From: Rhizobium album
GTDB lineage: Bacteria > Pseudomonadota > Alphaproteobacteria > Rhizobiales > Rhizobiaceae
Direction: 5' to 3'
NCBI RefSeq assembly: GCF_003122325.1
Contig: NZ_QFBC01000006.1
Location: 248,001 to 312,000, forward strand
Length of the DNA stretch: 64,000 nucleotides
Position 1 is the stretch's first letter. The number at the start of each line of letters is the position of its first letter. Made by a program: the position numbers and the translations under genes. Positions 6,716-27,121 of this stretch are shown here, piece by piece. The notes beneath the pieces are model-generated. The model worked only from the letters and a program-made list of their open reading frames with translations. It made no database searches and was not told where the DNA came from.

Positions 6716-9169
6716 CTATCTCTTTTCGGCCATGACGCGGGCGATCCGCGTCGTCCGTGATCTGCTGTCGTAGATCGCGCGGCCCCGGTTGGAAGCCGAT
6801 GCGAGGAACCTGTCTATCCACCGCGTGCGTTCTGCTTCTTCTTCCCTCTCCTTGTCCGTGACGGACACGAGGCCTGAAATGGCCGTGAGGGAGGAAGCGC
6901 CTACGGCGTACTGGTACTGCCACCCGTCTTCGGAAGCGCCAGGAGCGGCATTGCAGAGAACCCTGTCGGATGCCCATCTCGCCCAGCTCGACGGAAGGAG
7001 GACGCGAGAGCGCCGTGGCTTGAGAATGCCGCCTGATTGAAGGAATACCGGGCCGCCAGCGCGCAGATGGTGGGAGAGGATCGCCACGGAAGGAGAGACG
7101 AACGTCTTCACAGGCTTTCCATCGACTACCGAGCGGTAGAGGAAGGGATTGCGCGATTCCTTCCTTTCGAGTCTGTAGAGGCCGTCGGCAATCTTGTCGT
7201 CGTAACGGACTGCGAAGAACCCACGCTCCTCATCGAGCCTGCCAATCACCTGGTAGCCGTGCACGCCGTCGGGATCGCCGACATCGGCGCGCGCTTGCTT
7301 CGACGTGGGCTTTTCGGCGATGGCCATCCTTTCGATGAAGTCGCGGCGCACGCGCTCGTCCGGACACCTGACGGCATATCTGGGCAGCGCCCACTTCGAC
7401 AGGCCGTTCCATGTCTCGACCCTGGCTCCGGCCGCTCCCGCCGCGGCATGAAGGCGTTCGAGCACCGCGATCGGCGTCGGGCCGCTGATCCTGACGAGAT
7501 CGGAGCCGACGCGCTCGGCCATCAGAGGATTCTGAAGCAGCCGGCGGACCGGGAAATGGCGCAGCAGCGTCATCTCCAGCCAGCCGGCATCAGAGAAGGA
7601 TCGAAGCAGATCCCATTTGGATGGGCGGCCGTCCTCGGGCATGCCTCGCTGGATGATCTCGATGGCCTCGGAGAACGAAAGCCCCCGCGCCGTCCGTTCG
7701 TAGAGCGCCTCGCCAATCGTCACCAGCTCATCGCAGGGAGCTACGCGGTCTCCGGCCCAGTCTTCGACTGTGGTGACAAGTGATGGCACCGTATCGTGGT
7801 GGAACTCATCCTCCGAGATCTCCCTTGCGAAGTCGAAGGAAAGCCGACGAAGCTCTCCAACCTCGTTCGCCCGCGGGACAAGCAGGATCTCGCGGATCTC
7901 CTTGTTGCTGCGGGCGACGAACGCTCCTGAATAGATTCCTTTCAGGAACGAGAGACCCTCTTCGCTGCGAACCATGTCGACCGGCTTGCCATTCTTCTCG
8001 ACGCGGATGGCGGCCGGCATCGGACCTGCAATCATCGGAGCCAGCGGCGTGCGGCCAAGGTGCGCCCCACCAACCCTGATGCCGTCCCGCCACCCGAATT
8101 CCCTCGGGGCGCTTGCCGTCTGGGCACCGCCTCCGACCTGGTTTCGAAAGTGGGCCACCACCCAGTTGGCGTTCAGTCCGGCAACAGATCGGATTGCGTC
8201 AGCATCGCATGCGGCGAGCTTCGAGCTTGTCATCAGGAGGATGTTGGATGGCGATGTTCCTCCCCGGTATTTGCCCCAGCCGCTGTTTTCGAGGAACACG
8301 ATCCCTTTCCGAACCAGCTTTCCAAGAGTCTTGGGAATGAATTTAAGCGCCTCCTCGGGGGTCGCAATCGGCACCCGGTCGCCGAGCGGAGAAACCCGAA
8401 ACAGCTCGTGTTCGCCGAAATTGCCCTCCGCGACCTCGACCTCTTCGAGCGCAGCCTGTTCCGCCACGAGCGAATACCATGCCTGCCAGAAGGGTGTCTC
8501 CATATATTCGCGCACGCCGCGTTTCCGCGCGATGTCAAATTTTTCGAAGTTGTACACGAACGACTGCATCGTCTGGCCGCTCATGTTGGCCGTCGTGATT
8601 TTGTTGGCGACGGTAAGCGGGTCGAGAAGTCGTTCCGGAGGAATGGAATCCCGTACCTTTCGCAGTTCCACCTTGTGGCGCCAGGTCGGAAAGGCCATCT
8701 GCAGCGTGCGGCCGATACGGCTGATGTTGTTTGGAATGTTCTCGGGCAGCACCAGATCGATCTGATGTTCTCGCCAGAGAAACTCCTTCAGGTGCCGCCA
8801 CATCAGGTCGAGACCGTTCATCGGGAACCCGGTGAAATACTCGTTGAGCTGCTTTGCGAGAAGATCGTCGCGGAAGTCTCGATCCCCGCGCTGTCTTGTC
8901 TTGGTCGTCTGCATCCAGCAGAGGAACACGAGGATCCTCACGTAGTCAGGGGTATTCCCCTTCCTCGGTGCCATGTCGCCGGAAAAGCGAGCCTTGAGGA
9001 TGTCGATGTGCGGAAGGGTCTTGATGAGCTGCTTGCGAGCCTCTTCCAGATCGGTGACCCCGAAGATGTCGAGGAGATCGTCATCGGCGACGTAGACGCT
9101 GCCGACCGGACCGGTGCTGCCCGGAGCCAGAAAATATCTTTCGATGCATTCCGCCTCGAAATTTCTCAA
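6716..9169 (-). CDS. druF: DruF-like uncharacterised protein (TTG start proposed)
   Basis: An 817-residue protein with no motif I can name. The reading frame stays open upstream to 9313, but that would overlap the methyltransferase gene by 92 bp and add 48 residues of shadow-like sequence. A TTG at 9169 has a good Shine-Dalgarno stretch just upstream (GGAGGCGAAGGAAGA) and is the start I chose; the protein then begins LRNFEAECIERYFLAPG. The N-terminal third contains a Trp- and Arg-rich helical stretch; there are no membrane segments. It is 52 bp downstream of the methyltransferase stop and 3 bp before druG. It is called DruF from gene order in Druantia type II. In that family the protein has no assigned biochemical activity. 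Confidence 0.7.
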   Translation of the reverse strand: MRNFEAECIERYFLAPGSTGPVGSVYVADDDLLDIFGVTDLEEARKQLIKTLPHIDILKARFSGDMAPRKGNTPDYVRILVFLCWMQTTKTRQRGDRDFRDDLLAKQLNEYFTGFPMNGLDLMWRHLKEFLWREHQIDLVLPENIPNNISRIGRTLQMAFPTWRHKVELRKVRDSIPPERLLDPLTVANKITTANMSGQTMQSFVYNFEKFDIARKRGVREYMETPFWQAWYSLVAEQAALEEVEVAEGNFGEHELFRVSPLGDRVPIATPEEALKFIPKTLGKLVRKGIVFLENSGWGKYRGGTSPSNILLMTSSKLAACDADAIRSVAGLNANWVVAHFRNQVGGGAQTASAPREFGWRDGIRVGGAHLGRTPLAPMIAGPMPAAIRVEKNGKPVDMVRSEEGLSFLKGIYSGAFVARSNKEIREILLVPRANEVGELRRLSFDFAREISEDEFHHDTVPSLVTTVEDWAGDRVAPCDELVTIGEALYERTARGLSFSEAIEIIQRGMPEDGRPSKWDLLRSFSDAGWLEMTLLRHFPVRRLLQNPLMAERVGSDLVRISGPTPIAVLERLHAAAGAAGARVETWNGLSKWALPRYAVRCPDERVRRDFIERMAIAEKPTSKQARADVGDPDGVHGYQVIGRLDEERGFFAVRYDDKIADGLYRLERKESRNPFLYRSVVDGKPVKTFVSPSVAILSHHLRAGGPVFLQSGGILKPRRSRVLLPSSWARWASDRVLCNAAPGASEDGWQYQYAVGASSLTAISGLVSVTDKEREEEAERTRWIDRFLASASNRGRAIYDSRSRTTRIARVMAEKR

Positions 9170-9221
9170 TCTTCCTTCGCCTCCCCCCCTTAAATCCCCA
9201 AACGAAGCCTGACCCGATCCC

Positions 9222-11042
9222 CTATCGGTAGTGGAGTTCCTCGGACTTGCCCCTGCCCTGCTGGCGCGGCGGCTCGAGGTGAAGCACAAGATGCGGAGCC
9301 TTGAGCGATGCATCCGGCGACATGTCCGTGTCCTCGAAGGTCAGCCGCGCGAGACGGAACGTTCCCTCGTCGCTTCCGAGCAGGACAGCGGCGCCATCCT
9401 CCGGCATCGCCAGTTGAGGAAGGTCCGAGACGCGCCGCTCAGAAAGCTGGTCGTGCAGCAGCTTCAGGCGTGCGCGGAGGTAGCGGACAGGGATGTTGAG
9501 CTCGATCTGCCCCGGCTTCGATCCGAGGATGGCGAGAAGCTGGACGATCGCCCGGTCGATCGCGTCGACCTCGCCTTCCTTCGTCAGGGGCAACGCAATC
9601 ATGCCTGCGCCATCGGTCCCGCGGCGCTGCTGCTCCTCGTAGACGGCGACGAGATCCTGGTCGGCGAACGTGTCGCGCGAGGCGCGCCACTCGTCGCGTC
9701 GACGGTACCGAAGCTTCGCGTTGCTCAAGCGATATCCGTTCGCGGCCACTGCGTCGGCGGGGATTGGCTCGCCCCACCCGGCCGGCCAGTAGGTTCCACT
9801 GCCGTAGCCGTCTCCCGACCGCTCGGAGTCGTTTCTCTTGTTCATGTACCGCTTCACCATCGGGGGAAGCTTGCGGCCGTTGGCGATCACCTCGGAGGTC
9901 ATCCGCGCAGGAACGCCCACGGCTGCTCCGGCGAGAAGATGGCGCACGAGCTTCATCATGAAGAACGGAGGGACGGCGTTTCCAACCTGCCGATACTGCG
10001 CATCGCGGGCGCCGAGGAACTCGAAAGAATCCTTGAAGCCCTGCAGACGGGCACCTTCCCGCACCGTGAGGGCGCGGTCATGCAGAGGATGGGTGAAGCA
10101 TCCCGAGGTGACGTTGCCGAAGCCAGCCGAGATCGTGTAGGCCGGAGTGGCCGCGTGGAGGCGGCCATAGAGAGTGGCGTAGTCCGTGAGCCGGACCCGG
10201 CGGAAGCGGTCTGGCAGAAGCTCGGGCGGTATATCCTTCCAGCATCCGCCCTGCGGCACCTTGGACACCCGCTTCCTGTTCAGATCGGAAAGCTTGTTCG
10301 AATGGTGGTTCGGAGCCATGCCTGCGGTGTCGCGCACGAAACTCTGAAATGCGGTGGGCAAGCCGACGGACCCGAGAGTGGCGACCGCCGCCGCGTCCGT
10401 GGAACAGTCGGAAAGGTCGGAGATTGCTTCACTGACACTGACATATTCGGGAAGCTTTCCCGACGCATCGGATGCGTGGGTGTGCAGTGGGAAGTTTGCG
10501 GGAATGGGATCCAGCGTGGCGACGAGGATGAAGCGGTTACGGAGCTGTGGCAGGCCGTAGTCGGCCATGTTCACGACGTCGGCGAAGACGTTGTATCCTC
10601 TGTCCTCAAAGAGCTTGAATAGCTCCTTCACGATGACGAGGTTCTTTCCGTAGACCACGCCGGGGACATTCTCCATGATGACGCGGCGCGGCTTGCGTCC
10701 GACGGCGGTGAACCCATCCAGCAGTCTGATGAAGTGAACGAACAGGGCGTTGCGGGGGTCATCGAGGTGGAACACGCCCATCGTGCTGACCGCCTGGCAC
10801 GTCGGCCCGGCGAAGAACCAGTCGATCTGGTCGATCCCGGCGCGCTCAACGACGTCGGCGGCGGAGACAAGCGATACGTCGCAGCAGTCGACCAGTGCTT
10901 CGGGATGGCTGTTGCGGAAGGTCCGGGTTGCATCTGTGTCGATGTCCAGAGCCCATTTGACTTCGAGATCAGGTATCGCCGCGCAGGCACCGGCCGACAT
11001 GCCGCCGCAGCCGGAATAAAGGTCGATTGCTGTCTGGCCCAT
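9222..11042 (-). CDS. druM: C5-cytosine DNA methyltransferase, DruM-like
   Basis: Dcm-type enzyme of 606 residues from the ATG at 11042, which has a GGGGGA ribosome site; a TTG 33 bp upstream is a weaker alternative. Motif I is DLYSGCGGMSAG. Motif IV reads GPTCQAVSTMG, with Thr where most family members have Pro before the catalytic Cys (Cys82). Motif VI is ENVPG, motif VIII QLRNR, motif IX REGARLQGF and motif X YRQVGNAVPPFF. About 215 residues beyond motif X form an extra C-terminal domain of unknown role. It is the first gene of the minus-strand set that ends in the giant helicase. In Druantia type II a cytosine methylase heads the operon, probably marking host DNA; target specificity cannot be read from sequence. 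Confidence 0.88.
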   Translation of the reverse strand: MGQTAIDLYSGCGGMSAGACAAIPDLEVKWALDIDTDATRTFRNSHPEALVDCCDVSLVSAADVVERAGIDQIDWFFAGPTCQAVSTMGVFHLDDPRNALFVHFIRLLDGFTAVGRKPRRVIMENVPGVVYGKNLVIVKELFKLFEDRGYNVFADVVNMADYGLPQLRNRFILVATLDPIPANFPLHTHASDASGKLPEYVSVSEAISDLSDCSTDAAAVATLGSVGLPTAFQSFVRDTAGMAPNHHSNKLSDLNRKRVSKVPQGGCWKDIPPELLPDRFRRVRLTDYATLYGRLHAATPAYTISAGFGNVTSGCFTHPLHDRALTVREGARLQGFKDSFEFLGARDAQYRQVGNAVPPFFMMKLVRHLLAGAAVGVPARMTSEVIANGRKLPPMVKRYMNKRNDSERSGDGYGSGTYWPAGWGEPIPADAVAANGYRLSNAKLRYRRRDEWRASRDTFADQDLVAVYEEQQRRGTDGAGMIALPLTKEGEVDAIDRAIVQLLAILGSKPGQIELNIPVRYLRARLKLLHDQLSERRVSDLPQLAMPEDGAAVLLGSDEGTFRLARLTFEDTDMSPDASLKAPHLVLHLEPPRQQGRGKSEELHYR

Positions 11043-11210
11043 GATTCCCCCAAGGATTTCACGCAGTAGTAGCAAAGGGAACGCAGATCATCGACAGGAT
11101 TTGCAGCAAAAAGCCATTTTTTTATGAACGCAGGCAGTGACTTGAGCTTGTATAGCGGGTCAACAAGGACAAATACCCCTACACGAAGTTCCCATACGGG
11201 CGGGATCAAG

Positions 11211-11623: not shown

Positions 11624-13504
11624 TCAAGCAGCCGTGTGATCTCCCGGAGACCGTCCGATAAGTCGCAGGACCTCCTGGCCAAGAATGACATCGCGCCCCA
11701 TGAGGAGCTCGGCGAGCCCGTGCACGTCTTTCGTGCGGGCCTGGATAATCTCCTCAGCGCGTTCGAGCTGCTTCTCGAGAAGCCGTTCAACCTGCCGCCG
11801 GAGCACAGAATTCTGCCGTCGAAGCTCATCGAGGTCCTTTGATGTCGAAACATCGCAGTAAAGAAGTGCCCCCAGGCCCATGCTGGCAAGCATGAGAGTG
11901 GCAAGGTCCGAAGCCCGCTGAAGGTCTGACCCATCGGCACCGCCTGAGCCCTCGAAAACATCCCCGAGAACGACCTTTTCGGCAGCCATGCCACCGAGCA
12001 TCATGGCAATCTCATCGAGATAGGACTGACGGCTTCGGCTGCGTGTCACCCGCCTCCGCCATTGAACGTGCCCAATGCTACCATCGCGATGCCCCACCTC
12101 TTTCGCGACGACGATCATTTCGATCTCGGCTACAGCGAGTTCGAGGCCGACGACAGCATGCCCGGCTTCGTGGATGCATGCTGCCCAACGCTCCGCGCTT
12201 CCGAGGGCAGCAAGGGGCGGCACGAGCGCCAGCACGTCCGCGGCCTCCACATCCCTGCCCTGTTTGCGCGCAATCCGGCGGGCATCCTTCGCGACCTGTG
12301 CAATCAATGCGCCCGAATATCCGCTCATCGCCTTCGCGGTTTCCTGCAGAGCCTCGGTAGCGCCGGAACTAAGCTCGAGATGGGTTGCGAGCATCTGCGC
12401 TCTCGCCGCCTGATCAGGAAGGTCGATGATGATGTGTCGGTCAAGGCGACCGGGCCGTCTCAAGGCGGAATCGAGATTGTCCGGGTAGTTCGACGCCGCC
12501 ACGACAACGACACCCTCGCGGTCATCCGAGCCATCCAACAATTCCAGGAGGGCATTCACGACCTGCGTGCTATAGCCCGCGTTGTCCCCCCGGAATGATC
12601 GCCTGTCTCCGATCGCGTCGATTTCGTCGATCAGCAAAACTGTAGGCGCATTCTCCTTAGCATCCCGAAACGACTTGCGCATGGCCCCAAGCAGGTCCCC
12701 CAGGTGCCCTTTGGATTGCCATTGTGCACTTGACGTACCGATGAAATGCGCGCCGCACGACCTAGCCAGCGCCTGCGCAAAAAGCGTCTTGCCGCTTCCC
12801 GGCGGTCCGGAAAGAAGCAGGCCAGCGTCCACGTCCCGCCAGGCAATCCTTCCAACCCTCCAGTCCGCCAGATCAGACACGAGGTTCGTTCCCCAATCCC
12901 GCGCGTGGCCGTACCCCTCGAGTTCTTCGAGGCGCGGTTCCCATTTGGCCGGGCTCCTGGCACTGGTCGCCACGGCGAGCTTACCGAGCACGGCATCGAT
13001 CGGCCTTCCCTTGCGTAATGCCGCAAACAGCTCCTTAGGACGATACTGTGCAAGCGCCACCGCATGTTCGCGCCCAATGCGAATCCGCCAAGCGTCCTTG
13101 GCAGCCGAAATCAGATGTGCCGGTTTTACCGGATCCACCTGAACAATCCGGTCGAATGCAAGTTCGAACTCAGGGGGCATCTTGCAGCCGCTCTCGATCA
13201 GGACGACCACGGCCGACTTCAATCGTACGGTATCCTGGGCATCCTCGCACATCGTCTCGCCGCGTCTGCTGAACATGATCGACGCGACATGATAGTGATC
13301 CAAGGCATCGCTCGATTTGAGCACTGCCCTCGTGGCGTCGCGGTAAGCTTCGAACGCAGCATCCGGTGGAGTTGTCAGCCCGATGACTTTTGAATCAGAA
13401 CGCATCTGGAGAAAAAGGCCGCATTTTCGAAGTGCACTGCGGATCGCATAGCCATAGGCCTTGTTTTCGAGCGTGGCATCAGGCTCGATGGGTTTCTTAT
13501 TCAT
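11624..13504 (-). CDS. Soluble FtsH-like AAA+ ATPase/M41-type zinc metalloprotease
   Basis: A 626-residue protein with an AAA+ module and an M41-like protease module. Walker A is GPPGSGKT (233-240), Walker B VLLIDEIDAIGD (289-300), and an arginine-finger region RRPGRLDRH is at 349-357. The zinc motif HEAGH is at 445-449. The third ligand region GGADGSDLQRASDLA near 520-535 matches the Asp of FtsH. Unlike FtsH it has no transmembrane helices; instead about 200 N-terminal residues form an unknown domain. FtsH-type enzymes unfold and degrade proteins, so this should be a cytosolic ATP-driven protease with a specialised target. It follows the TnsA-like gene by 9 bp, and its AGGAGG ribosome site overlaps that gene's stop. 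The genomic setting suggests defence or control of transposition. Confidence 0.85.
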   Translation of the reverse strand: MNKKPIEPDATLENKAYGYAIRSALRKCGLFLQMRSDSKVIGLTTPPDAAFEAYRDATRAVLKSSDALDHYHVASIMFSRRGETMCEDAQDTVRLKSAVVVLIESGCKMPPEFELAFDRIVQVDPVKPAHLISAAKDAWRIRIGREHAVALAQYRPKELFAALRKGRPIDAVLGKLAVATSARSPAKWEPRLEELEGYGHARDWGTNLVSDLADWRVGRIAWRDVDAGLLLSGPPGSGKTLFAQALARSCGAHFIGTSSAQWQSKGHLGDLLGAMRKSFRDAKENAPTVLLIDEIDAIGDRRSFRGDNAGYSTQVVNALLELLDGSDDREGVVVVAASNYPDNLDSALRRPGRLDRHIIIDLPDQAARAQMLATHLELSSGATEALQETAKAMSGYSGALIAQVAKDARRIARKQGRDVEAADVLALVPPLAALGSAERWAACIHEAGHAVVGLELAVAEIEMIVVAKEVGHRDGSIGHVQWRRRVTRSRSRQSYLDEIAMMLGGMAAEKVVLGDVFEGSGGADGSDLQRASDLATLMLASMGLGALLYCDVSTSKDLDELRRQNSVLRRQVERLLEKQLERAEEIIQARTKDVHGLAELLMGRDVILGQEVLRLIGRSPGDHTAA

Positions 13505-13513
13505 GCCCGCCTC

Positions 13514-14134
13514 CTACTTCGCGCGCGGGCGGACGACCGTGTCCGGGCCAAGCAGGTTCTCATCGACGTCCACATCGAGGTGGCCGCGCAGGATCAGGGA
13601 AGCGATCGTCTCCATCGCACGCCCTTCGCATACGGCGGTGAGGCATTCGGTCAATGTGAGCGTGCCCATTTCTTCCAAGGCGGCAAGCACTCGGATACGA
13701 TCTCCAAGCGTTGCTTCATATCGGGCATACCTCACCAGGTCCCTGGCATTGTGGAGGCGAACCGGATTGAGATCGGAGAAGCGCACCAACTGATAACGGT
13801 ACCCTGCCATCGCGAGCACATTCTCAAGCCATTCCGAAGCCTCGTCATCTCCTGTGCAGACCTCGACCATCAAACGCTCGGTCATGGTCTGAACCATGAA
13901 GTCGACATGGTGGCGAAGGCGACGTTGACCGACATCGTCGGCGATCTGATAAGTGAACGGCTGCCATGAGACGACGTCTCGGTCGAGGTCCAGGAGGCAT
14001 GCGTAATCGCGCGCTTCCTGGGATCGGAATACGGGGTGGCCGACGGCCTTCAACGTGGCGAATGGAAATAGCGGGCGGTAGTCTTGGAGATCGCTGGCGA
14101 CATCACCAGCGGCATGAGCGGATAAGGTCTTCAT
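13514..14134 (-). CDS. TnsA-like nuclease-fold protein with degenerate active site
   Basis: A 206-residue protein resembling the TnsA endonuclease fold. It has FRSQEARDYACLLD with Glu40, RHHVDFMVQ with Asp78, and then LMVEVCTGD. The last matches the usual VEVK strand but has Cys93 where the catalytic Lys is expected. The C-terminal half (about 140-200) looks like a winged helix (LTLTECLTAV). In Tn7, TnsA cuts the 5' ends of the element; with Lys lost this protein may only bind DNA or partners. A GGAGGG ribosome site precedes the ATG. It forms a tight two-gene operon with the FtsH-like protease and is separated by 6.6 kb from the tnsB set, which has its own TnsA-like gene. Confidence 0.6.
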   Translation of the reverse strand: MKTLSAHAAGDVASDLQDYRPLFPFATLKAVGHPVFRSQEARDYACLLDLDRDVVSWQPFTYQIADDVGQRRLRHHVDFMVQTMTERLMVEVCTGDDEASEWLENVLAMAGYRYQLVRFSDLNPVRLHNARDLVRYARYEATLGDRIRVLAALEEMGTLTLTECLTAVCEGRAMETIASLILRGHLDVDVDENLLGPDTVVRPRAK

Positions 14135-14493: not shown

Positions 14494-14697
14494 TCAGAGA
14501 TTGGTATCGTCATCGTCCGAAAGGGGACCGGGCCGGGAGAAGAGTTCTTCCAGCGTCTTTTTGCCAGAAACGAACGTAACGTCAAATCTGCCGTCGGTGT
14601 CGATCACTCTCTGAGTGCCGCGTGTTTTAGCTGCTTCCAGAACTTCCTGGATGCGGGCCTCGGCCTCGTGTCTCTGCCAATCGGAATCACGCGTCAT
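14494..14697 (-). CDS. Phd/YefM-like antitoxin
   Basis: A 67-residue protein whose N-terminal half (W-x8-ARIQEVLEAAKTRGTQRV) follows the Phd/YefM antitoxin pattern, in which a short helical domain sets up a DNA-binding dimer. The second half, with SGKKTLEELF and an acidic tail, fits the flexible toxin-binding end. It begins at an ATG preceded by GAGAGG. It is divergent from the PIN toxin gene with 108 bp between the two starts, which is not the usual head-to-tail toxin-antitoxin arrangement. It may still be the partner, or an orphan left after loss of its own toxin. Confidence 0.6.
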   Translation of the reverse strand: MTRDSDWQRHEAEARIQEVLEAAKTRGTQRVIDTDGRFDVTFVSGKKTLEELFSRPGPLSDDDDTNL

Positions 14698-14805: not shown

Positions 14806-15420
14806 GTGCGGACAGACCCTATTCTTCTACTGGATACGGACATCGTCAGCCTTATGGGTCGCGTGAAACCGCCGAACGGTCTGCGCCCCTGGCTCCTCCG
14901 CGTCGGCATACATCGTCTTGCACTCTGCTATCCAGTCGTAGCAGAACTGCTACGCGGAGCCCACCTTCGGGTGAAGGATGATCCCCAGAGAGCGCTTCTC
15001 ATCGCCAACTGGGTAGATGAGCTTACCTCCATGGCCTTTCCGTTTCCGGAAATGACAACGGAGGTGGCAACGGTCTACGCCAGCATGACATCTGTCCCCA
15101 GCCTCCGGCACATGTGGACCGTTCAGAGCGGCCAGAAAAGCAACAGGCTCGGACATGATTTAATGATATCGGCCGTCGCCATCGTCCACCGGATGCCGAT
15201 TCTCACTGCGAACGTCGATGATTTTCTCGAGATCGATGAACTTTTTCCCCTACCCGGCGTGTACCACCCTATGAAGGCGCGATGGTTCGTGGATCCCGGC
15301 TTCGAGGTGCCTCTGCCATATTTCGATCCAACCGAGCCCGACCCGCATGAGAAGGCTCTGCCCAAGCTCACCAGCCCTAGCGCCTACGGTTCGATCGTCC
15401 CGGGAAACGACACTCAATAG
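14806..15420 (+). CDS. VapC-like PIN-domain ribonuclease toxin
   Basis: A 204-residue PIN-domain protein. The acidic metal site is visible as Asp10 in LLLDTDIV, Glu47 in VVAELLRG, Asp118 in GHDLMISAVA and Asn136/Asp138 in TANVDDF. VapC toxins cut RNA, often tRNA, and are held inactive by an antitoxin. The domain ends by about residue 150; the last 55 residues are an extra tail rich in Pro. The start is GTG with an AGGA site 8 bp upstream; no ATG is close. The only candidate antitoxin nearby is the divergent Phd-like gene. Confidence 0.78.
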   Translation: MRTDPILLLDTDIVSLMGRVKPPNGLRPWLLRVGIHRLALCYPVVAELLRGAHLRVKDDPQRALLIANWVDELTSMAFPFPEMTTEVATVYASMTSVPSLRHMWTVQSGQKSNRLGHDLMISAVAIVHRMPILTANVDDFLEIDELFPLPGVYHPMKARWFVDPGFEVPLPYFDPTEPDPHEKALPKLTSPSAYGSIVPGNDTQ

Positions 15421-15946: not shown

Positions 15947-18094
15947 ATGGCGCGGAAAGTCAAAAACAAGCCGGTGCTCGATGATGTCCAGGCGAAGGCC
16001 ATGGGCAAGACGAAACGGGAAATCCTGAAGGTCCATGCCGAGATCGGGGGACGTTTCTTCAAGCTTGGCAAACTCATCGAGGAACTCGCACACGTCGCCC
16101 CGGAAATCGACCTACGGGAATTCCTGAGCACGGAGTGCGCCATAGACCGGGCCGAGGCCAATACGCTGCTGCGCTTCGGGGAAGTTTTCCGCGGGCGCGA
16201 GAAAACCATCACCAAGGCATACCTGCCGCCTTCCGCGCTCATGGCGATCGCGAAAGCCGATGAAGCCACCCGCATCGAAGCCTTCACCCGCATTGATGCC
16301 GGGCTGCGGCTGGACGCCGATGATGTCGACGCTCTCAAGACCGATCTCCGCCGCATGTCCCGGTCATACGACGAGAACCGCAGGGATGATCGGCTGTCCG
16401 CTCTCGAAGACAGGGCAACTCAAACCGCTCGGCTGACCGCAAGGACCCTGGAACGGCGCGTGGACGGGCTGCTCGACATGATCCACGAATTCTTCGAGGA
16501 GCACCTGCTGGTACCCGAAGGCTGGGGAGTCTACGAGTACGTTGCCGACATAGAAAGTGCTGGCTACAAGGCCAGCCATGCAAGGATTCGATCCGAGGCT
16601 GCCGCCGCACTCGATGAATTCGAACGGGTCTATGGGCGCCAGCACCTTCCAGGAAACGAATGGCGGTCCGCCCTCGCCCGGGGCGATGAACTCGGCCCCG
16701 GCCTTGCCAAGGCGCATCTGTCGCTGAAATCCTTTGTGGCCGGACGTTTCGGAGAACCGATAGGCTTCGATTTCCAGACAGACGAATCCCAAACCATCGG
16801 ATTCGACATCTGGGAGGGGCTGGTATTCCTGTCTCCCGACACGAAACAGATCGGAAGCCCGTGGAAGTATCCGGTTGCCCAACCTCCGTTCCGTCTGAAC
16901 TGCGTGGAGATCTGCGCTGGTGCCGGCGGCCAATCCATTGGCCTCCATGCCGCAGGATTCGACCCTGTCGCACTCTACGAGAACGACGACGACGCGGCAG
17001 CCACGCTTCGACGGAACTGGTACCGTTGGAAGGTTATAAGGAAGGACGTCAGAAATGAATCCTTCGTCCGCTATCGTGGTATCGACCTGGTGGCCGGAGG
17101 AATTCCCTGCTTGCCTTATTCCCAAGGCGGTGGCGGACTGGGGAAGATGGACGATCGCGACCTGCTGAACGAAGCCGTGCGGGTCGTGCGGGAAGCGCAA
17201 CCCAAGGCCTTCTTCTTCGAGAATGTTCCCGGTTTCATGTTCGACAGGCATTCAGACCACCGAGCCCGGGCACTCGCCGCGTTCCGCGATCTCGGCTACG
17301 AAGTCACGATCCAAAAACTGGAGGGCAAGGATTTCGGCATTGGCCAGGCTCGGACACGCATTGTCATTGTCGGCTTTGCGGACGGGCTGCTGCATCGTTT
17401 CAACATGCCTCGAACCGCTGACGCGAGCACCGTCAATGTGCTGGAGGACCTGTTGATGGTGCATCGAACACCTCCGGAAACGCGCCCTCGCGACGGAGAA
17501 ACCAGCGATGGGTACTCCGCTGAACAGAAGCGTTTCGACGAGTGGGCGGACCACTGGATCAGGGAATACGGTGGACGATGCACGCCGACCATTGCCGGGA
17601 TCGCCAACGGTGCTCAGGACAACACCGCCAAGGCCTGGGCAGCAGCCGGCTTCGATGTCAGGAAGTTGGCCGGCGGCCCGCCAACCCCCGCCGATATCAC
17701 AAGCATCGACTACCTTCCATGTCTCACGATCCGGATGCTTCAACGCCTCCAGAACTTTCCGGACGAGTGGGCATTTTCCGGAGATCGGAGCCAGCAAATC
17801 CGGCAGATCACCAACGCATTCCCTCCACGGCTCGCACGATCGATCGCGCAGGCGATCTACACGGCACTTACCGGAGTCACCTTTAATCAGAAGAGCTTGA
17901 TGACTTCGCCTCTTCCACGCGGCTCGATCGGTGCGACACCGCCGAAGATCAATCTGAATGCGGGGCGGTACGAGCCGGATGATGGTGTGCCATCCGAGAC
18001 TTGGAAGACGAGGTTCAAGCGAGGCGTCGCCATGCCGGGTGACGGCTGGCCGGAAGGCGACCCATATCCCGGCGATCGGACATGGGACGCATAA
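15947..18094 (+). CDS. C5-cytosine DNA methyltransferase with long N-terminal extension
   Basis: A 715-residue protein. The catalytic part begins near 315 with motif I VEICAGAGGQSIGLHAAG. Motif IV is GGIPCLPYSQGG, with Leu after the catalytic Cys388 instead of the usual Gln. Motif VI is ENVPGF and motif VIII QARTRIVIVG. Motif X is reduced to RQITNAFPPRLA, where GNA would be expected. Residues 1-300 are mainly helical, with a DUF3102-like look (KTKREILKVHAEIGGRFFKLGKLI) and a long Arg/Asp-rich helix. This part may bind DNA or a partner. The ATG has GGAG 8 bp upstream. No restriction gene lies beside it, so it may be an orphan or protective methylase. Confidence 0.85.
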   Translation: MARKVKNKPVLDDVQAKAMGKTKREILKVHAEIGGRFFKLGKLIEELAHVAPEIDLREFLSTECAIDRAEANTLLRFGEVFRGREKTITKAYLPPSALMAIAKADEATRIEAFTRIDAGLRLDADDVDALKTDLRRMSRSYDENRRDDRLSALEDRATQTARLTARTLERRVDGLLDMIHEFFEEHLLVPEGWGVYEYVADIESAGYKASHARIRSEAAAALDEFERVYGRQHLPGNEWRSALARGDELGPGLAKAHLSLKSFVAGRFGEPIGFDFQTDESQTIGFDIWEGLVFLSPDTKQIGSPWKYPVAQPPFRLNCVEICAGAGGQSIGLHAAGFDPVALYENDDDAAATLRRNWYRWKVIRKDVRNESFVRYRGIDLVAGGIPCLPYSQGGGGLGKMDDRDLLNEAVRVVREAQPKAFFFENVPGFMFDRHSDHRARALAAFRDLGYEVTIQKLEGKDFGIGQARTRIVIVGFADGLLHRFNMPRTADASTVNVLEDLLMVHRTPPETRPRDGETSDGYSAEQKRFDEWADHWIREYGGRCTPTIAGIANGAQDNTAKAWAAAGFDVRKLAGGPPTPADITSIDYLPCLTIRMLQRLQNFPDEWAFSGDRSQQIRQITNAFPPRLARSIAQAIYTALTGVTFNQKSLMTSPLPRGSIGATPPKINLNAGRYEPDDGVPSETWKTRFKRGVAMPGDGWPEGDPYPGDRTWDA

Positions 18095-20764: not shown

Positions 20765-21610
20765 ATGACGCGTATTCGCCAGGTCATCCGATACATGAAG
20801 GAGCTGGAATCCGGTTTCGATCGAACTTTCCTCCCCCTGCCCATCGAAACCGTCTTCCTGAAAGCAAACGAGCCCCTCTCCGGCCGTTACGTCCCATTCG
20901 AATCCGATCCGCACGACGAAGAGGATTATTCAGGCCTCACCGGCATTCCCTGGGTATGGCAGCCGACCGAAGAGGCCACGCCTTCCAGGTGGTATCCTTC
21001 CCGTACCAAGGGCCACAGCCGCGGCACCATGGTCAACAGCAAGACGTGCAAGGCGATCACGTACTCGAGCACCTACGAGCGAAATCTCGCCTACATGATG
21101 TGCGCCTCGAAGCACGTCATGCTCGTGGAAGACCAGCCGTCCGCGGTTCCGATCCCGCAGGAGGACGGCACCTCACAGCACACCATCGACTACCGAACCA
21201 CGATGGCGACAGGAACCGTGATCGTCGTGGGAGTGCGCCCGACCTACCTCTTGGAAAAGGACGGCCTGGAATACACCATCGGCACCTTGGACCGGAACCT
21301 GCCCCACGGCTTCGCCGACGGAGCCACCATCATCACCGAGCGGGAAGCCACCGATGCGCGCTGCTGGAATGCAATGAGCATCCTGCGTGCGCTCAAGCAT
21401 TCCGTTGCGGCCGACAACGATCGCCTTCGCGAATACGCATCACGCTTCCACGGCACCGTCCACATCCGAGATCTCCTCGCGGGGTGGGAGATCCCAGCCT
21501 ATGGCCGCAACGCGGTCTGGTGCCTGATCCACGACGAGATCCTCATGCAGGTCCGCCCGGATCTCAGGCTCGTCGATGCCCCCTACGTCAGATTCAATCA
21601 CGTCAACTGA
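20765..21610 (+). CDS. TnsA-like transposon endonuclease-fold protein
   Basis: A 281-residue protein with an N-terminal variable part and a TnsA-like core. Glu105 is in SSTYERNLAYMM, Asp142 in QHTIDYRTTM, and the strand VVGVRP ends in Arg158 where TnsA has the catalytic Lys. The C-terminal 80 residues (VHIRDLLAGWEI to MQVRPDLRLV) resemble the DNA-binding/winged-helix end of TnsA. TnsA works with TnsB to cut the element free; if Arg cannot replace Lys here, transposition would be by copy-in with cointegrates. AAGGAA precedes the ATG by 7 bp. It is 10 bp before the transposase gene, consistent with an operon. Confidence 0.62.
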   Translation: MTRIRQVIRYMKELESGFDRTFLPLPIETVFLKANEPLSGRYVPFESDPHDEEDYSGLTGIPWVWQPTEEATPSRWYPSRTKGHSRGTMVNSKTCKAITYSSTYERNLAYMMCASKHVMLVEDQPSAVPIPQEDGTSQHTIDYRTTMATGTVIVVGVRPTYLLEKDGLEYTIGTLDRNLPHGFADGATIITEREATDARCWNAMSILRALKHSVAADNDRLREYASRFHGTVHIRDLLAGWEIPAYGRNAVWCLIHDEILMQVRPDLRLVDAPYVRFNHVN

Positions 21611-21620
21611 GAGCAACGAC

Positions 21621-23945
21621 ATGCAGCCCGACCTCAGACAGATTCTCGCCCTTCAGCACAATCCTGTTTCGCTGCCATATATCCGGCTCCCCGAAAACGC
21701 CCGGGTGAAGGATCTCGGCATCGAATACTGCGTCCTCTACTGCGACCGGAGTGGAGCCGTCCTGCGCCGTATGGATGAGACCAATGCGACCGTCAGCTTC
21801 ACGCAGCCGGAGCTAAACGAACGGCTCAACCGCCCTCTCAACCCGATGATGGTCGAGTTCGGATTTTACGGCAAGAGCAAGGCCAAAGCGCGTCTCTCCG
21901 GCTCCAGCAGCCTGTCGACCCTGTCCCCCGCCGATCAGGACGATGTCTTGCGTAAGGAGTTCTTTGTTCGGAAGTTTCTCGAAATGCAAGCGGACTACAG
22001 GGAGCAGCGACGACTCGCCCGTATCCATGGTCTGCCCAAGCCTCCCGTCGTCAGCAAGTCGCGGGAACCGCTTCTTCGCATCATTCCGGTGATCGCCCAC
22101 GAGTGGCGTGAAATGCAGGCCCGTGTGACGGGTGCCAAGGCCCTGACGTATCGCACGAAGGCAAACATCGCGCTCTTCGAGCCCAAGCCTTCGACCGTCA
22201 AGGGCTGGATTCTCGAGATGGAGCTGAACGACTTCGATCCCATCTGCCTCAGGAACGACTACAGGCGAGACCGCCCCGAATATTTCACGGCGGACGAGTT
22301 CGTTCATCTCAACGCGGCAATCCACGAGGCCTGCTCGACCACGAGGCCCGACCTTGCCGCGATCCATCGAGACATGACGTTCAAGATGGAAGCAGAGAAC
22401 AAGTTGCGGGGGCCTGATGACCAGCTCAGAATTCCCTGCGAGGAAACCCTCCGCAACCGCTTCAACGCCCGGCCGGAGATGTGGCGCGACCTCGGTCGCG
22501 ATGGGAAGGAGGCCGCCCGTCGGGAATGGCAACCAGAATCAGGCGGCATCGACGTGATCCGTCCGCTCGAGCGGATCGAGTGCGACGACCATGAGACCGA
22601 CCTCCAGTCGCTGTTGGTCAAGATCGGCATCTGGAAAAAATTGTCGAAAGCCGAGCGCAAGAAAATCAAGCGGTTCCGTCTCACGATCACGGCGATGATC
22701 TGCGTAGCGACCCGTTGCATCGTCGCCCTGCATGTCAGTGCGGAACCGCCGTCTCTGAAGTCGGCGATGACAGCTCTGGAGATGTCGACCCGCGACAAGA
22801 CGGAAATCGCGCGCCGCCTTGGCTGCCAATCGCCCTGGCCGCAGGGCGGCACGCATGAATACGTGGCAGTCGACAGCGCTATGTATTTCGCCCACCGACC
22901 ATATCGTGTCGCGCTCAATGATGCCGGAATCGAGATTTTCCTGCCCAGAGCAGGTGATGCCTCGTGGCGTGGCTTCATCGAACGCTGGTTCGAGACCTTC
23001 AGCCACCAGATGTTCAATTATTTCGACGCCCGCACGTGGGGATCGGTTGCCGAGAGGGGCGACTACGACGCCGAGGCACACGCGAACATGGTCGCGGACC
23101 AGGTTGCGGAATGCATGATCCGCTGGTGCGTGGATGGCTATCACAACGCCCCGCATTCCGGTCTGAACGGCGCAACTCCCCTCAATACCTGGTTCGAACT
23201 TGCGAGGGATCACGGGGTCATGCCGGGGCCAACCGGAGCGCTTCGCACCCACTTGTTCGGCACCTACGTGACGCGCAGAGCTTCAAAAAAGGGCTATCGC
23301 GTAGCAGGTCTCTATTACCAGAGCAAAGAGCTCCAGCAGATCCGCCGGAAAAACAACAAGGCCCAGCTTGTGGGCCGCGTGAACAATCATGACCTGGGTG
23401 CGATCTCGATCCTGACACCAGAAGGCTGGATCGAGGTTCCCTGCATTCATCGGGAGCTGGAAGGGGTCAGCATCTGGCAGTGGCTGGCGGCGTCCGAGCG
23501 CCTCAGGCTCTTTAACGCCGACAACGGGAGGGCCTCCCGCCAGACCATGCTCGACACCTTCGCGTGGCTCAAGCAGCAGGCGGAAATGGCCCGGCTTGAA
23601 GCAGGTCTCGTCAGCCCGGTTCTGACCGACGAGGACTATCTCCGCTTCGAGAAAAAGATGGATCACGTCTTCGATGTCGTCGACGGCCCCGTCAAGGGCG
23701 AACCACGCCCCGAGGGGGAATGGCACCCGTCCAACGAACTATTCGCGGCGCTCCGGATCGAGCCGATCGTCTACGCCAAGGCCAGGAGCGCGAAGGAAAT
23801 CCGCCAGGAAGCCGAGACGGGCGGCCGACCTGCTCTCGGTTCCACCGCCCTGCCCGCCAAGCCCAGCCCCCCCGCCACACCGGACGGCACAAAGGAGACC
23901 TCGGTCGTCCGCCGCATCAGCAACAACATCTTTGACGACGAATAG
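21621..23945 (+). CDS. DDE transposase, TnsB/TniA (Mu-type) family
   Basis: A 774-residue transposase that joins transposon 3' ends to target DNA. The start at MQPDLRQILAL places it 10 bp after the TnsA-like stop. An N-terminal DNA-binding part (1-300) precedes the retroviral-integrase-like core. Candidate acidic residues are Asp323 in ECDDHETDL, Asp418 in YVAVDSAMYF and Glu454 in RGFIERWFETF, the order and context expected for this family. The C-terminal 250 residues, with a basic KGYRVAGLYYQSKEL stretch, match the Mu-transposase C-terminal beta barrel that contacts TnsC/TniB. The protein appears complete, so the element may still be active. Confidence 0.9.
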   Translation: MQPDLRQILALQHNPVSLPYIRLPENARVKDLGIEYCVLYCDRSGAVLRRMDETNATVSFTQPELNERLNRPLNPMMVEFGFYGKSKAKARLSGSSSLSTLSPADQDDVLRKEFFVRKFLEMQADYREQRRLARIHGLPKPPVVSKSREPLLRIIPVIAHEWREMQARVTGAKALTYRTKANIALFEPKPSTVKGWILEMELNDFDPICLRNDYRRDRPEYFTADEFVHLNAAIHEACSTTRPDLAAIHRDMTFKMEAENKLRGPDDQLRIPCEETLRNRFNARPEMWRDLGRDGKEAARREWQPESGGIDVIRPLERIECDDHETDLQSLLVKIGIWKKLSKAERKKIKRFRLTITAMICVATRCIVALHVSAEPPSLKSAMTALEMSTRDKTEIARRLGCQSPWPQGGTHEYVAVDSAMYFAHRPYRVALNDAGIEIFLPRAGDASWRGFIERWFETFSHQMFNYFDARTWGSVAERGDYDAEAHANMVADQVAECMIRWCVDGYHNAPHSGLNGATPLNTWFELARDHGVMPGPTGALRTHLFGTYVTRRASKKGYRVAGLYYQSKELQQIRRKNNKAQLVGRVNNHDLGAISILTPEGWIEVPCIHRELEGVSIWQWLAASERLRLFNADNGRASRQTMLDTFAWLKQQAEMARLEAGLVSPVLTDEDYLRFEKKMDHVFDVVDGPVKGEPRPEGEWHPSNELFAALRIEPIVYAKARSAKEIRQEAETGGRPALGSTALPAKPSPPATPDGTKETSVVRRISNNIFDDE

Positions 23946-23957
23946 GAGCACAGACAC

Positions 23958-25091
23958 ATGACCGATTTCGAAAAAGACCATGAAGCTCGTCGCAGCCAGG
24001 CTGCCATTGACCGCGTTCGCAGCCTCGTCGGAGATGACCGTCTTGCGGTCGCCGACCGCATCTCACAGCTATACAACAAATACATTCCCCTCGACCGCGA
24101 CGAACTCCTCAGAGAAGCCCTGATGGGCTTGGTCGCAAGCGTAACAACGCCGATCACCGGAAAGCCCGACAAGCGTCGCATTGTCGCCGTGTGCGGCCGC
24201 TCCGGCGCGGGGAAGACAACCGCGATCATGAAACATGTCCGCAATCTCAAGGCGATGGCCTCCTATGTCGATGAGGACGGTGTGACCATTCATCCCGTCA
24301 TTTTCATGGAGGCGGGCTCTCCTTGCACCCCACGTCTTCTCGCCATCGCCGGACTCGAGGCGCTCGGTCATACGCCGCCGGACACCATCCGCGAGAACGA
24401 AGCCTGGCTGCTGTTTCGTCGCCTTCTCAAGGTGCACAAGGTCATGTGGGTCGTCATCGACGAGGCGCAGAATGCAATCGAGACTGCCAACGTCCGGCAA
24501 GCCACGGTCATCGGGGATGCATTCAAGTCCCTCACCCAGATGCCTGACTGGCCCGTCCGGCTCATCCTCGCGGGTGTACCTCCGCTCGCAAGCTTCCTTG
24601 CCCGCAAGCAGCTCTACAATCGCAGGACCGTCATCCCGTTCGACACGGTCAACGCGGACGGGAGCATGGATCTCATCGACAGCATCCTGGAAACGGTCGT
24701 CATCGAACATGCCGGAATGGAGCTCTGCCTCAATCTCGACGGCTATGCGTCGGGAGACGAGGAACCTGATCCTCGAAAGCTCAAGGAGGTCTTCCTCAGG
24801 AGAATGGCACATGCCTGCGACGGTGAATTCGGCTCTATCGTCCAGATGATCCGAGGCGCGGTCGAGGCAGCGATCCTCGACAGTCGCGAGCACGTTACGC
24901 TCGACGACTTCATCAAGACCTACGCCTCATTCTCAGGATGCAGGTCGAGCAAGAACGTCTTCACGGCCACCAACTGGGAGGAACTCGAACCCTCAGTGGC
25001 TCTGCTGCGCGACGACGACCGAGCCTGGGAAGAATCCCGCCTCAAATCGAAGGGCAAGAACGCAACGAAATACGGAGTACGCCCTCAATGA
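23958..25091 (+). CDS. AAA+ transposition regulator, TnsC/TniB family
   Basis: A 377-residue ATPase with Walker A GRSGAGKT (80-87) and Walker B VMWVVIDEAQNAI (Asp168-Glu169). TnsC/TniB proteins form ATP-dependent filaments on DNA and pass target information from TniQ to the transposase. It begins 12 bp after the transposase stop, with an AGGAG site, and its stop overlaps the tniQ start (ATGA). The C-terminal region after about 320 is basic and probably binds the transposase. Nothing appears broken. Confidence 0.9.
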   Translation: MTDFEKDHEARRSQAAIDRVRSLVGDDRLAVADRISQLYNKYIPLDRDELLREALMGLVASVTTPITGKPDKRRIVAVCGRSGAGKTTAIMKHVRNLKAMASYVDEDGVTIHPVIFMEAGSPCTPRLLAIAGLEALGHTPPDTIRENEAWLLFRRLLKVHKVMWVVIDEAQNAIETANVRQATVIGDAFKSLTQMPDWPVRLILAGVPPLASFLARKQLYNRRTVIPFDTVNADGSMDLIDSILETVVIEHAGMELCLNLDGYASGDEEPDPRKLKEVFLRRMAHACDGEFGSIVQMIRGAVEAAILDSREHVTLDDFIKTYASFSGCRSSKNVFTATNWEELEPSVALLRDDDRAWEESRLKSKGKNATKYGVRPQ

Positions 25092-26914
25092 CCAGGCTTG
25101 CAGAACTTCTTCCCTTCAATGCTGACGAAACCGTCGCCAGCTACTGCTCCCGGCTGGCTGTCGCGTGCGGATATCGCCATTCACGATCCTTCGCAAACGA
25201 CCTCGGCTTCCGTTTTCAGGGACTGGTTGTCGGCAACGATACGGATGTCAAACAGTTCGCTTCGGTTCTGGACGTGCCGGAATCGAAACTGTCTCCTGGC
25301 GTGATCGTGACCGAGAACCGGACGAGTACCGTCTCCGGCCAGAAGCTGACGCGTGCCCTCATGGAGCGGTACCGCCTCCGGCTCTGCCCCTTGTGCATCC
25401 GTGACGACGAGCGCAACCTCGAAGGCCGGAAGGGCTTCAGAGCATACGGCCGGATAGATTGGCTCGTGTGTCCCATCAGAACCTGCGAGACCCATGGAAC
25501 CAAACTGATCACACCGATTGGGGAGGATGCACGCCAGTACATGCATGACTTCGCCGTGAATCTCGCGATTGCAGCAGCCAATGTCGAGGAATTCTTGTCG
25601 CAGGCGGAACCCATGGATACCGACAGCCTGCAGCGCTACGTTCAGGCACGGCTCAGGGGAATGCCCACGGCCTCAACTTGGCTCGACACCATGCCCTTGT
25701 ATATCGCCGTCCGGCTCTGCGAAATAGTCGGCGCCGCGGAGCGGCATGGGGTCCGCTTCAAACCGAAGACTCTAAATGATCAGGAGTTGTCGTCCGCCGC
25801 GGGCACAGGATTCGACATTCTTTCCGGAGGCGCGGACGAGTTCCGGGACTGGCTCGTCAGAAAAACGGAGAGCTTCTATCGCAAGAACAGCGATCTCGGC
25901 GGGCGCTTCCTCTTCGGCCGACTATACGAGAAGGTCGCGTATGAGACCGACGACAGTGCATATGATCCGATCCGTCACATCATGCGGGAGGTCGTGATCA
26001 ACACCCTGCCGCTCGGTCCAGGTGAAGAGTTCTTCGGCCCCGTTACCGAGCGCCGGATTCACTCAGTGCATTCTGCATCCCGGGAATACGGCATTCATCC
26101 AGCACGCCTCGCCAAGCTACTTGCGGCTGCCGGGCTGATCACCGTGGAAGCCTCCAAACTCACGTTCGAGAAGATTCTCGTCGCCGCCGACACCATGGAG
26201 AGGTTCGTCGCCGAAGCCAAAAAAGGCCTGAACGCAGCGGAAGCGAAGGCGGCACTAAACGCGAAGGGAACACAGTTCGAGCAACTCGTGAAGCTCGGAT
26301 ACATCAAGGCCGATGTGGAAGACGAAACGGGAGCCTTCTCCTTCATCAACCGATTTTCACCTGCGGGAATAGAGGAGTTCCTGCGGAAATTGCGGGTGGC
26401 CGTGACGTGCGAAAATGACGATGGTCTCATCGATCTGCAACAGGCGAGGAAGAGAGCGAACTGCTCGTTCGGCGAACTGATCGATCTCCTTGTGAATAAC
26501 AAGCTCGAGCGAGTTGCGTTCGCGTCCGGGGAGCACGGCCTCGCCGCTATCCGTGTAGATGTCGACGAAATCAAGCAGTACACGGCAGGCGCAAACCACG
26601 ATTGCATCCCGATCCACAAGTTGGTCAAGCTGATGCCGTCATCGAGCAAGATCATCAGAGCGCTTCTGGCGGAAAAGAGAATCCCGACTGTCGAGCTGCG
26701 CAATCACGTGACGCGGAACCTTCAGAAATATGTCGCACAGGAAGATTTCGATACGTTCATGCGGGAGTTCGTGTCGCTTGGGAATATAGCGACGCGCGTG
26801 AATTTGAGAACTTGGACTGTCGAAAGGGAGTTGCGCCATTATGGGGTGGTGCCGGTGTACGTTGCCGGCGGCATGCCGTTCTATCGACGGGCGGATGCAG
26901 AAGCCATCTTCTAG
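25088..26914 (+). CDS. TniQ-family transposition target protein
   Basis: A 608-residue protein that begins with the TniQ signature: MTRLAELLPFNADETVASYC, then a zinc-finger-like set at Cys100/Cys103 (LCPLC) and Cys128/Cys133/His136 (VCPIRTCETHG). TniQ proteins choose or recognise the target and load TnsC. The remaining 450 residues contain several helix-turn-helix-like repeats (for example EYGIHPARLAKLLAAAGL and DLQQARKRANCSFGEL), so it may bind a specific DNA site as TnsD does. The ATG overlaps the tnsC stop by 4 bp. An intrinsic terminator follows 22 bp after the stop. Confidence 0.88.
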   Translation: MTRLAELLPFNADETVASYCSRLAVACGYRHSRSFANDLGFRFQGLVVGNDTDVKQFASVLDVPESKLSPGVIVTENRTSTVSGQKLTRALMERYRLRLCPLCIRDDERNLEGRKGFRAYGRIDWLVCPIRTCETHGTKLITPIGEDARQYMHDFAVNLAIAAANVEEFLSQAEPMDTDSLQRYVQARLRGMPTASTWLDTMPLYIAVRLCEIVGAAERHGVRFKPKTLNDQELSSAAGTGFDILSGGADEFRDWLVRKTESFYRKNSDLGGRFLFGRLYEKVAYETDDSAYDPIRHIMREVVINTLPLGPGEEFFGPVTERRIHSVHSASREYGIHPARLAKLLAAAGLITVEASKLTFEKILVAADTMERFVAEAKKGLNAAEAKAALNAKGTQFEQLVKLGYIKADVEDETGAFSFINRFSPAGIEEFLRKLRVAVTCENDDGLIDLQQARKRANCSFGELIDLLVNNKLERVAFASGEHGLAAIRVDVDEIKQYTAGANHDCIPIHKLVKLMPSSSKIIRALLAEKRIPTVELRNHVTRNLQKYVAQEDFDTFMREFVSLGNIATRVNLRTWTVERELRHYGVVPVYVAGGMPFYRRADAEAIF

Positions 26915-26975: not shown

Positions 26976-27068
26976 TTGGCCAGTTTTTGCATTCAGAATG
27001 GCCAATCCTGGGTACGGAATCCGCGCCTGCTGACAGAAAATCAAAGGGTTACGACTGAATTGGCCAGT
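26976..27068. repeat. Three TTGGCCA motifs at the transposon edge
   Basis: TTGGCCAGT occurs at 26976-26984 and again at 27060-27068, and TGGCCAA (inverted) at 26999-27005. Tn7-like ends carry short repeated transposase sites, and these lie just outside the last transposition gene. The matching copies at the left end are not in the window, so this is a candidate only. TGGCCA is itself palindromic, which lowers the weight of the orientation. Confidence 0.4.
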
Positions 27069-27121
27069 ACTAGACTGGTTTTCTCATGAACTCACGCTAG
27101 AGTTCAAATGAGATGAACAGA

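Follow-up and report, generated by a model that had tools for sequence, protein, structure and literature searches.

The window analysed here, a stretch of 64,000 nucleotides of Rhizobium album (contig NZ_QFBC01000006.1, positions 248,001 to 312,000), carries on its minus strand two adjoining genes inside a Tn7-like transposon, one encoding a degenerate relative of the transposase subunit TnsA (hereafter pseudo-TnsA) and the other a soluble FtsH-like AAA+ protease. Both open reading frames (ORFs) start with ATG and lie where the first-pass annotation of this DNA had placed them; the protease gene is the downstream one, and a 9 bp gap separates the pseudo-TnsA stop from the protease ATG. A promoter scan returned no sigma-70 match. 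A second such pair is present in the same genome, on another contig. The two genes and the domains of the protease are as follows:

13514..14134, minus strand: pseudo-TnsA, a TnsA-fold protein of 206 amino acids (aa) with the catalytic Glu and Lys positions lost (ATG start, NCBIfam, fold, alignment)
11624..13504, minus strand: soluble FtsH-like AAA+/M41 protease of 626 aa (ATG start, Pfam, fold, residues, hydropathy)
about 12959-13504, minus strand: N-domain of the protease, of no known family
about 12215-12958, minus strand: AAA domain of the protease
11624-12214, minus strand: M41 domain of the protease

The 206-aa protein matched the TnsA-like model NF033179 of NCBIfam with an E-value of 8.8e-12 and 45 bits, below the cut-off of 110, and remained under the cut-offs of both TnsA models, PF08722 and NF033179. 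When its AlphaFold2 (AF2) model (predicted local distance difference test, pLDDT, 87.7) was compared with the PDB by Foldseek, the top match was a 779-aa chain of the TnsABCD-DNA transpososome and ranks 2-4 were Tn7 TnsA (E 9e-8 to 6e-5), with query template-modelling (TM) scores of 0.46-0.54, the agreement with the TnsA fold being rated as moderate at 0.46-0.49; the TnsA/TnsC complex 1t0f was also among the matches. The predicted structure has the TnsA fold with its N- and C-terminal domains, and the core TnsA proteins of the same transposons showed profile similarity to pseudo-TnsA. A PDB sequence search with the pseudo-TnsA profile gave chance matches only and no TnsA.

The first-pass annotation had described a TnsA-fold partner with Cys93 at the catalytic Lys position; this was upheld, and the catalytic Glu position was found to be lost as well (Ala41). 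Among the 66 aligned members of the pseudo-TnsA family, Glu occurred at its position in none and Ala in 61, and Lys was present in one and lost in 64, while Asp78 was retained in 65 and Asp or Glu occupied position 91 in 65. Pseudo-TnsA does not hold the full Glu-Asp-Lys catalytic set of TnsA. In an unrooted tree (25 + 35 rows), it formed one group apart from core TnsA, with support of 100/100. It also differs from Tn7 TnsA in its place, preceding the protease gene and not tnsB, directly before which another TnsA relative lies. The C-terminal domain of Tn7 TnsA binds TnsC; in pseudo-TnsA this domain was more conserved than the N-terminal one (identity 0.55 and 0.40, respectively), unlike in core TnsA (0.22 and 0.24), a constraint that suits an adaptor that would no longer cut DNA.

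The 626-aa protease shares with FtsH the fold and the AAA (PF00004, 2.5e-34) and Peptidase_M41 (PF01434, 3.9e-17) domains, with Walker motifs and an HExxH zinc motif, here HEAGH, and its Walker, arginine and zinc-site residues were invariant in 54/54 aligned members. In contrast to FtsH, it scored only 200 bits with the FtsH equivalog TIGR01241, whose cut-off is 600, and carries Trp-Gln at 262-263, invariant in the aligned proteases, the FtsH pore loop being Phe-Val-Gly. Judged by hydropathy only, it lacks a membrane anchor, as the best 19-residue Kyte-Doolittle window of residues 1-225 was 0.93, compared with 2.45 in the first 200 residues of an FtsH of the same genome (L003); some relatives of the protease are more hydrophobic, with windows that reach 1.94 among their first 200 residues. 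These values agree with the metalloprotease without membrane helices of the first-pass annotation, and so does the absence of a Pfam match in the N-terminal 182 aa, for which a novel domain of about 200 residues had been claimed. Identity as an ordinary housekeeping FtsH was rejected, since the genome has L003, a separate FtsH with a hydrophobic N-terminus. A reading of the N-domain as a degenerate AAA domain was rejected too, the alignment having a plausible register but P 0.027 and Prob 1.8%. The N-domain was the least conserved part of the protease (0.23, with 0.53 for the AAA part), and such variability would suit varied targets, in transposition and defence alike. Among 141 ORFs, no fusion of the protease with TnsA, TnsC, TniQ, PIN, phosphoesterase or the methyltransferase N-terminal part was found. 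Because the Glu and Lys positions of pseudo-TnsA are lost and the catalytic residues of the protease are invariant, the former looks, from its residues, like a dead nuclease and the latter like a working enzyme.

Three further observations were made around protease genes. A metallophosphoesterase gene lies near the protease, often directly behind it, in L051, L053, L054, L055, L059, L061, L062, L064, L084, L085, L087, L088, L116 and L129; this gene is found whether or not pseudo-TnsA is there, and its partnership with the protease family may be the older one. In L043 (5535-8788), the protease ORF overlaps the ORF of a TnsC/TniB-like ATPase by 4 bp, and TnsB was not detected beside them in this stretch, which ends with the contig. 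Directly behind the protease of L102 (12645-13712), L107 (12545-13699) and L121 (12780-13790), a protein of 336-384 aa resembles the window's C5 methyltransferase (15947-18094), but of that enzyme only the N-terminal extension.

The first-pass annotation had staked the coupling of the two genes on their adjacency in other genomes, and there they do travel together. With one genome scanned for each species, 105 TnsA-like relatives were confirmed, 80 of which were kept, all read as Hyphomicrobiales, and the protease lay next to the TnsA-like gene on the same strand in 71/80 loci (70 and L132), four of them with short protease ORFs (L074, L068, L076 and L114). In the nine loci without a protease ORF, the sequence of L090, L117, L119 and L125 ends at most 0.6 kb from the TnsA-like gene; partial protease matches were seen in L125 and L141, a weak one in L135 and none in L083, L094 and L104. 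On plasmids, the protease adjoined the TnsA-like gene in 14/15 records, the exceptional record being shortened, with the TnsA-like gene beside an IS3 transposase. Chance neighbourhood was rejected by these genome and plasmid counts. Pairwise distances of pseudo-TnsA and protease correlated with r 0.85 over 31 loci, and a domain-wise look at coevolution gave weak and indecisive partial correlations of 0.11-0.39. No pseudo-TnsA relative was confirmed in viral contigs and no relative of the protease N-domain in phage records. Two pseudo-TnsA genes lie about 21 kb apart on one contig in L095/L124, G1298:C19 and G1288:C27, so that two pairs may be present in certain elements or islands.

The element around the window's pair has a tnsA gene together with tnsB, tnsC and tniQ, and inverted ends with repeated, putatively TnsB-binding sites, as expected of a Tn7-like transposon:

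20765..21610, plus strand: core TnsA with Arg at the Lys position (profile match 1.7e-5, residues; no Pfam match)
21576..23945, plus strand: TnsB transposase (Mu-transpos_C 9e-4, just below cut-off; DDE positions invariant over 17 relatives)
23958..25091, plus strand: TnsC/TniB ATPase (TniB 9.3e-11)
24938..26914, plus strand: TniQ (PF06527 2.1e-11; the listed ORF overlaps tnsC, and the true start is probably later)
26976..27087: right end of the element, where inverted repeats carry TGGCCA three times
about -8886, outside the window (about 11114 in L030): left end of the element, its inverted repeats likewise carrying TGGCCA three times

From the positions of these ends, the element is about 36 kb long, and the pair lies well inside it. 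A genome of the same genus (G1099) matched both flanks of the element stretch and not its interior; a class II ribonucleotide reductase gene immediately precedes the left end, the 3' end of the reductase gene being a candidate target, and no 5-bp target duplication was found at the ends under the criteria used.

Linkage of the pair to such cores was then assessed in 58 well-flanked loci, that is, those that include a protease and extend for 9 kb or more to either side (the near-copies L142/L143 were both counted). A tns core was found within 50 kb of 46/58 pairs. In detail, core genes were inside the locus in 31, and among the other 27, for which distances were worked out by hand, tnsB was 10-45 kb away on the same contig in 15; tnsB was present somewhere in 24/26 genomes of these 27 seemingly core-free pairs. 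The 15 distant tnsB genes led us to reject stand-alone pairs as a sign of independence from transposons.

The link was also traced from the TnsB side. Close TnsB was found in 9/297 genomes of the order, and the protease was within about 10 kb in 6 of these 9 loci; of the other three, one had full flanks and no protease and two were at contig ends. In the taxonomic family, TnsB was found in 42/297 genomes at 53 places, 40 of which were examined, with a protease match within about 9 kb in 13, two being fragments or edge pieces; by coordinates, the protease was within 10 kb of 17/53 places and within 50 kb of 28/53. In the 42 tnsB-bearing genomes, 30/58 protease genes were within 50 kb of tnsB, compared with 0/21 for the HsdR control (26 rows, 5 of them removed as second pieces of the same genes). 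The protease family occurred in 34/42 tnsB-bearing genomes vs. 45/171 genomes of the taxonomic family at large, and in 21/24 tnsB-bearing vs. 24/147 other genomes (Fisher 1e-11, on the assumption that G1063, G1089 and G1116 are in the 171-genome sample). These results indicated that the pair goes with Tn7-like transposons, generally within this Hyphomicrobiales group, an association that is new here.

The position of the pair was also recurrent. In 30 loci, which represent 17 TnsB clusters at 40% identity, the protease preceded tnsB in the same orientation at a distance of 1.2-3.5 kb, in most cases separated from it by tnsA; the TnsA-like gene before the protease was flagged in 20 of the 30 and was missed in L127 and L285 through overlong ORF starts. 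Divergent placements were found on the tnsA side in 19 loci and on the tniQ side in one, so that the tnsA side accounts for 49/50 overall. The 50 placements were pooled from several searches, most of which had the pair as their starting point, and hence are no random sample; the near-copies L033/L102, L044/L106, L095/L280, L287/L288 and L311/L312 were each dropped once, in this count only. In 40 loci found from TnsB first, the most recurrent non-core families were PIN (13), the protease (11, counting full ORFs), a C5 methyltransferase resembling that of the window at 15947-18094 (9) and pseudo-TnsA (8), the next family reaching 5, and the window thus shows the typical accessory set of its transposon group. 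No common feature of the TnsB tails was noticed by eye.

The remaining cargo of the window's element includes the following genes:

14806..15420, plus strand: PIN-domain protein (PF01850 0.002, under cut-off), a recurrent accessory gene of the transposon group
14494..14697, minus strand: 67-aa ORF in head-to-head arrangement with the PIN gene; it is conserved next to PIN genes of other loci (no Pfam support)
15947..18094, plus strand: C5 cytosine methyltransferase with a long N-terminal part, a recurrent accessory gene
9222-11075, minus strand: DruM-like C5 methyltransferase, cargo behind the pair
6716-9313, minus strand: DruF-like protein, cargo behind the pair
4676-6712, minus strand: 678-aa protein without an assigned family, cargo behind the pair
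L030:11310-15800 and 18797-19930, and window 6716-11075: genes of a cyclic-oligonucleotide-based antiphage signalling system (CBASS) and Druantia-like genes of the element

The CBASS genes are of type II and comprise a cyclase, E1-E2 and SAVED-2TM, and the Druantia-like ones are DruM-like, DruF-like and a 377-aa ORF whose match is confined to the C-terminal end of DruE2. With the Tn7-like tnsB-tnsC-tniQ genes at 21576-26914 and the TnsA relative before them, these genes bear out the defence-rich transposon noted at first inspection. The 67-aa ORF family had 37 matches in the loci examined, usually near PIN genes and in varied orientation; by eye the ORF is antitoxin-like, and with the PIN gene it looks like a toxin-antitoxin pair. 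Core TnsA had Glu-Asp-Lys in 46/79 cases and Arg for Lys in 14, the window's included; 19/79 had been called degenerate, two of them wrongly (L309 and L313, which are only start-truncated). Catalytic residues were lost in core TnsA of the window (20765-21610), L075, L089, L098, L118, L128, L133 and others, and transposons of this kind may transpose replicatively. Compensation of a degenerate core TnsA by pseudo-TnsA was rejected, as no relation was found: Glu-Asp-Lys was present in 11/18 TnsB-first loci with the protease and in 17/26 without.

We tentatively read the pair as a core-proximal accessory adaptor-protease module of Hyphomicrobiales Tn7-like transposons, acting on Tn7-type transposition proteins. 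The dead TnsA would keep the TnsA fold, above all the C-terminal domain, without cutting DNA, and would bind TnsC and/or TnsB of Tn7-type machinery; the soluble protease would dock on it, pull the transposition complex apart, and extract and degrade a subunit. The likeliest benefit would be that a stable complex is cleared after integration and repeated transposition is limited; another possibility, with the same parts, is that rival Tn7-like elements would be excluded. We infer the direction of the effect on transposition, as we do the physical complex and the substrate. The reading is favoured by the association with tns cores, by the partner's descent from TnsA and by the HsdR control. The suggestion in the first-pass annotation that the protease degrades transposase and so controls the element gains from the strong linkage to tns cores; overall, that annotation's interpretation is partly supported.

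Several observations weigh against an action on transposition. Distances of the pair correlated with those of the core with r 0.41-0.47 only, compared with 0.91-0.97 among TnsB, TnsC and TniQ, and the pair was less diverged than the core (median distance 0.59-0.64 vs. 0.80-0.81). The low correlation suggests that the pair is exchanged between elements, and from these sequence distances it appears to have moved among differing Tn7-like cores, taking up much the same place in many of them. No protease was found at any of 17 Tn7-like loci that are more distant and come from other parts of the class, several of them with short flanks or contigs (L230, L238, L240, L242 and L245), and together with the correlation this rejected the pair as a strict core gene. 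Further, tnsB was absent within 50 kb of 12/58 pairs, one pair (L052) sits among metabolic genes, 25/53 TnsB places lacked a protease on the contig within 50 kb, several pairs adjoin defence genes, and HsdR was the sole linkage control. PIN genes were as frequent near the core, in 13 to 15 of 40 loci, and recurrence alone is therefore no proof of a role in transposition. A purely transpositional role is thus weakened by the modular inheritance, the equal PIN frequency and the 12 pairs without a core.

Part of this evidence is shared by a second reading, the main rival and a serious one, although we hold it to be somewhat less likely, namely that the pair is anti-phage or anti-plasmid defence cargo with the Tn7-like element as its vehicle. 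Pseudo-TnsA and the protease N-domain would then sense an invader protein or a DNA-bound complex, and the protease would destroy the invader's protein or one of the host. The first-pass annotation had likewise suggested that the TnsA-like part could sense DNA or phage protein. The window's element, with its type II CBASS and Druantia-like genes, is consistent with the defence reading, as are other pairs near CBASS with HORMA, Kiwa-like and peptidase/ATPase genes, Druantia III (L069) and FRG (L142), but 46/58 pairs lie near a Tn7-like core, compared with 0/21 for HsdR, and the position beside tnsA is repeated in 17 TnsB clusters. Similarly, inheritance partly apart from the core, the N-domain as the most variable part (0.23) and the metallophosphoesterase or nuclease-like neighbours of protease relatives without pseudo-TnsA all argue for defence, against which stands the derivation of the partner from a transposase subunit. 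No PADLOC model fits the pair, the TnsA-like protein matching 0 families and the protease giving only AAA matches to IetA, TRIP13 and Mad8.

A role as an accessory regulator outside transposition and phage defence, in which the protease would turn over a cargo protein, e.g. the small partner of the PIN gene or another regulator, and stabilise the element, is unlikely. PIN genes recur in the region, always on the tnsB strand (15/15), and a small conserved ORF adjoins them; in the window both lie within 1.3 kb of the pair; however, co-occurrence of PIN and protease was not significant (PIN in 7/13 protease loci, Fisher p 0.17), and the TnsA-derived partner is left without a reason. It is very improbable that the TnsA-like protein has kept nuclease activity or metal-dependent DNA binding through a rearranged active site, with the protease controlling its level, since Glu is lost in 66/66 and Lys in 64/66, although Asp78 and Asp or Glu at 91 are each kept in 65/66.

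With the transposition reading, the closest known parallel is ClpX, an AAA+ unfoldase likewise proposed to act on transposition complexes, of Mu transposase, where the same clearing job has been proposed, and of the type I-F CRISPR-associated transposon (CAST). ClpX differs in being host-encoded, and we know of no transposase-derived partner for it; for the pair, action on such complexes is our proposal. Nor do we know of a described transposon that carries its own AAA+ protease aimed by a dead transposase subunit. It is possible, with some doubt on our part, that an element-encoded machine of this kind removes or polices Tn7-type complexes, as a module swapped between very different cores. 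For type I-F CAST, integration is reported to rise with ClpX, which is hypothesised to take the post-transposition complex apart (PMC12326709). Among defence systems, IetAS has an AAA domain in IetA similar to that of the protease (1.2e-25); unlike in IetAS, M41 is fused to the AAA domain here, the partner is TnsA-like and the pair contains no S8 peptidase. In the open-access literature, no title or abstract opening was found that describes a soluble FtsH-like protease paired with a TnsA-like protein, and term searches of the main text of surveys of Tn7-like transposons returned no FtsH; in the part of PMC10910872 covered, the sole mention is a legend entry on HflK. An M41 protease, TnsA and an adaptor-protease pair are known kinds, found here in a new combination.

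There is no agreed account of how Tn7-like elements leave their product once integration is complete and are kept from further jumps, and one CRISPR-guided relative is already known to be influenced by a host unfoldase. If the pair serves phage defence instead, it would be a system whose sensor is a part taken from a mobile element. If the transposition reading is true, the post-integration step would become directly testable with a two-gene module, a protease encoded by the element together with its TnsA-derived adaptor.

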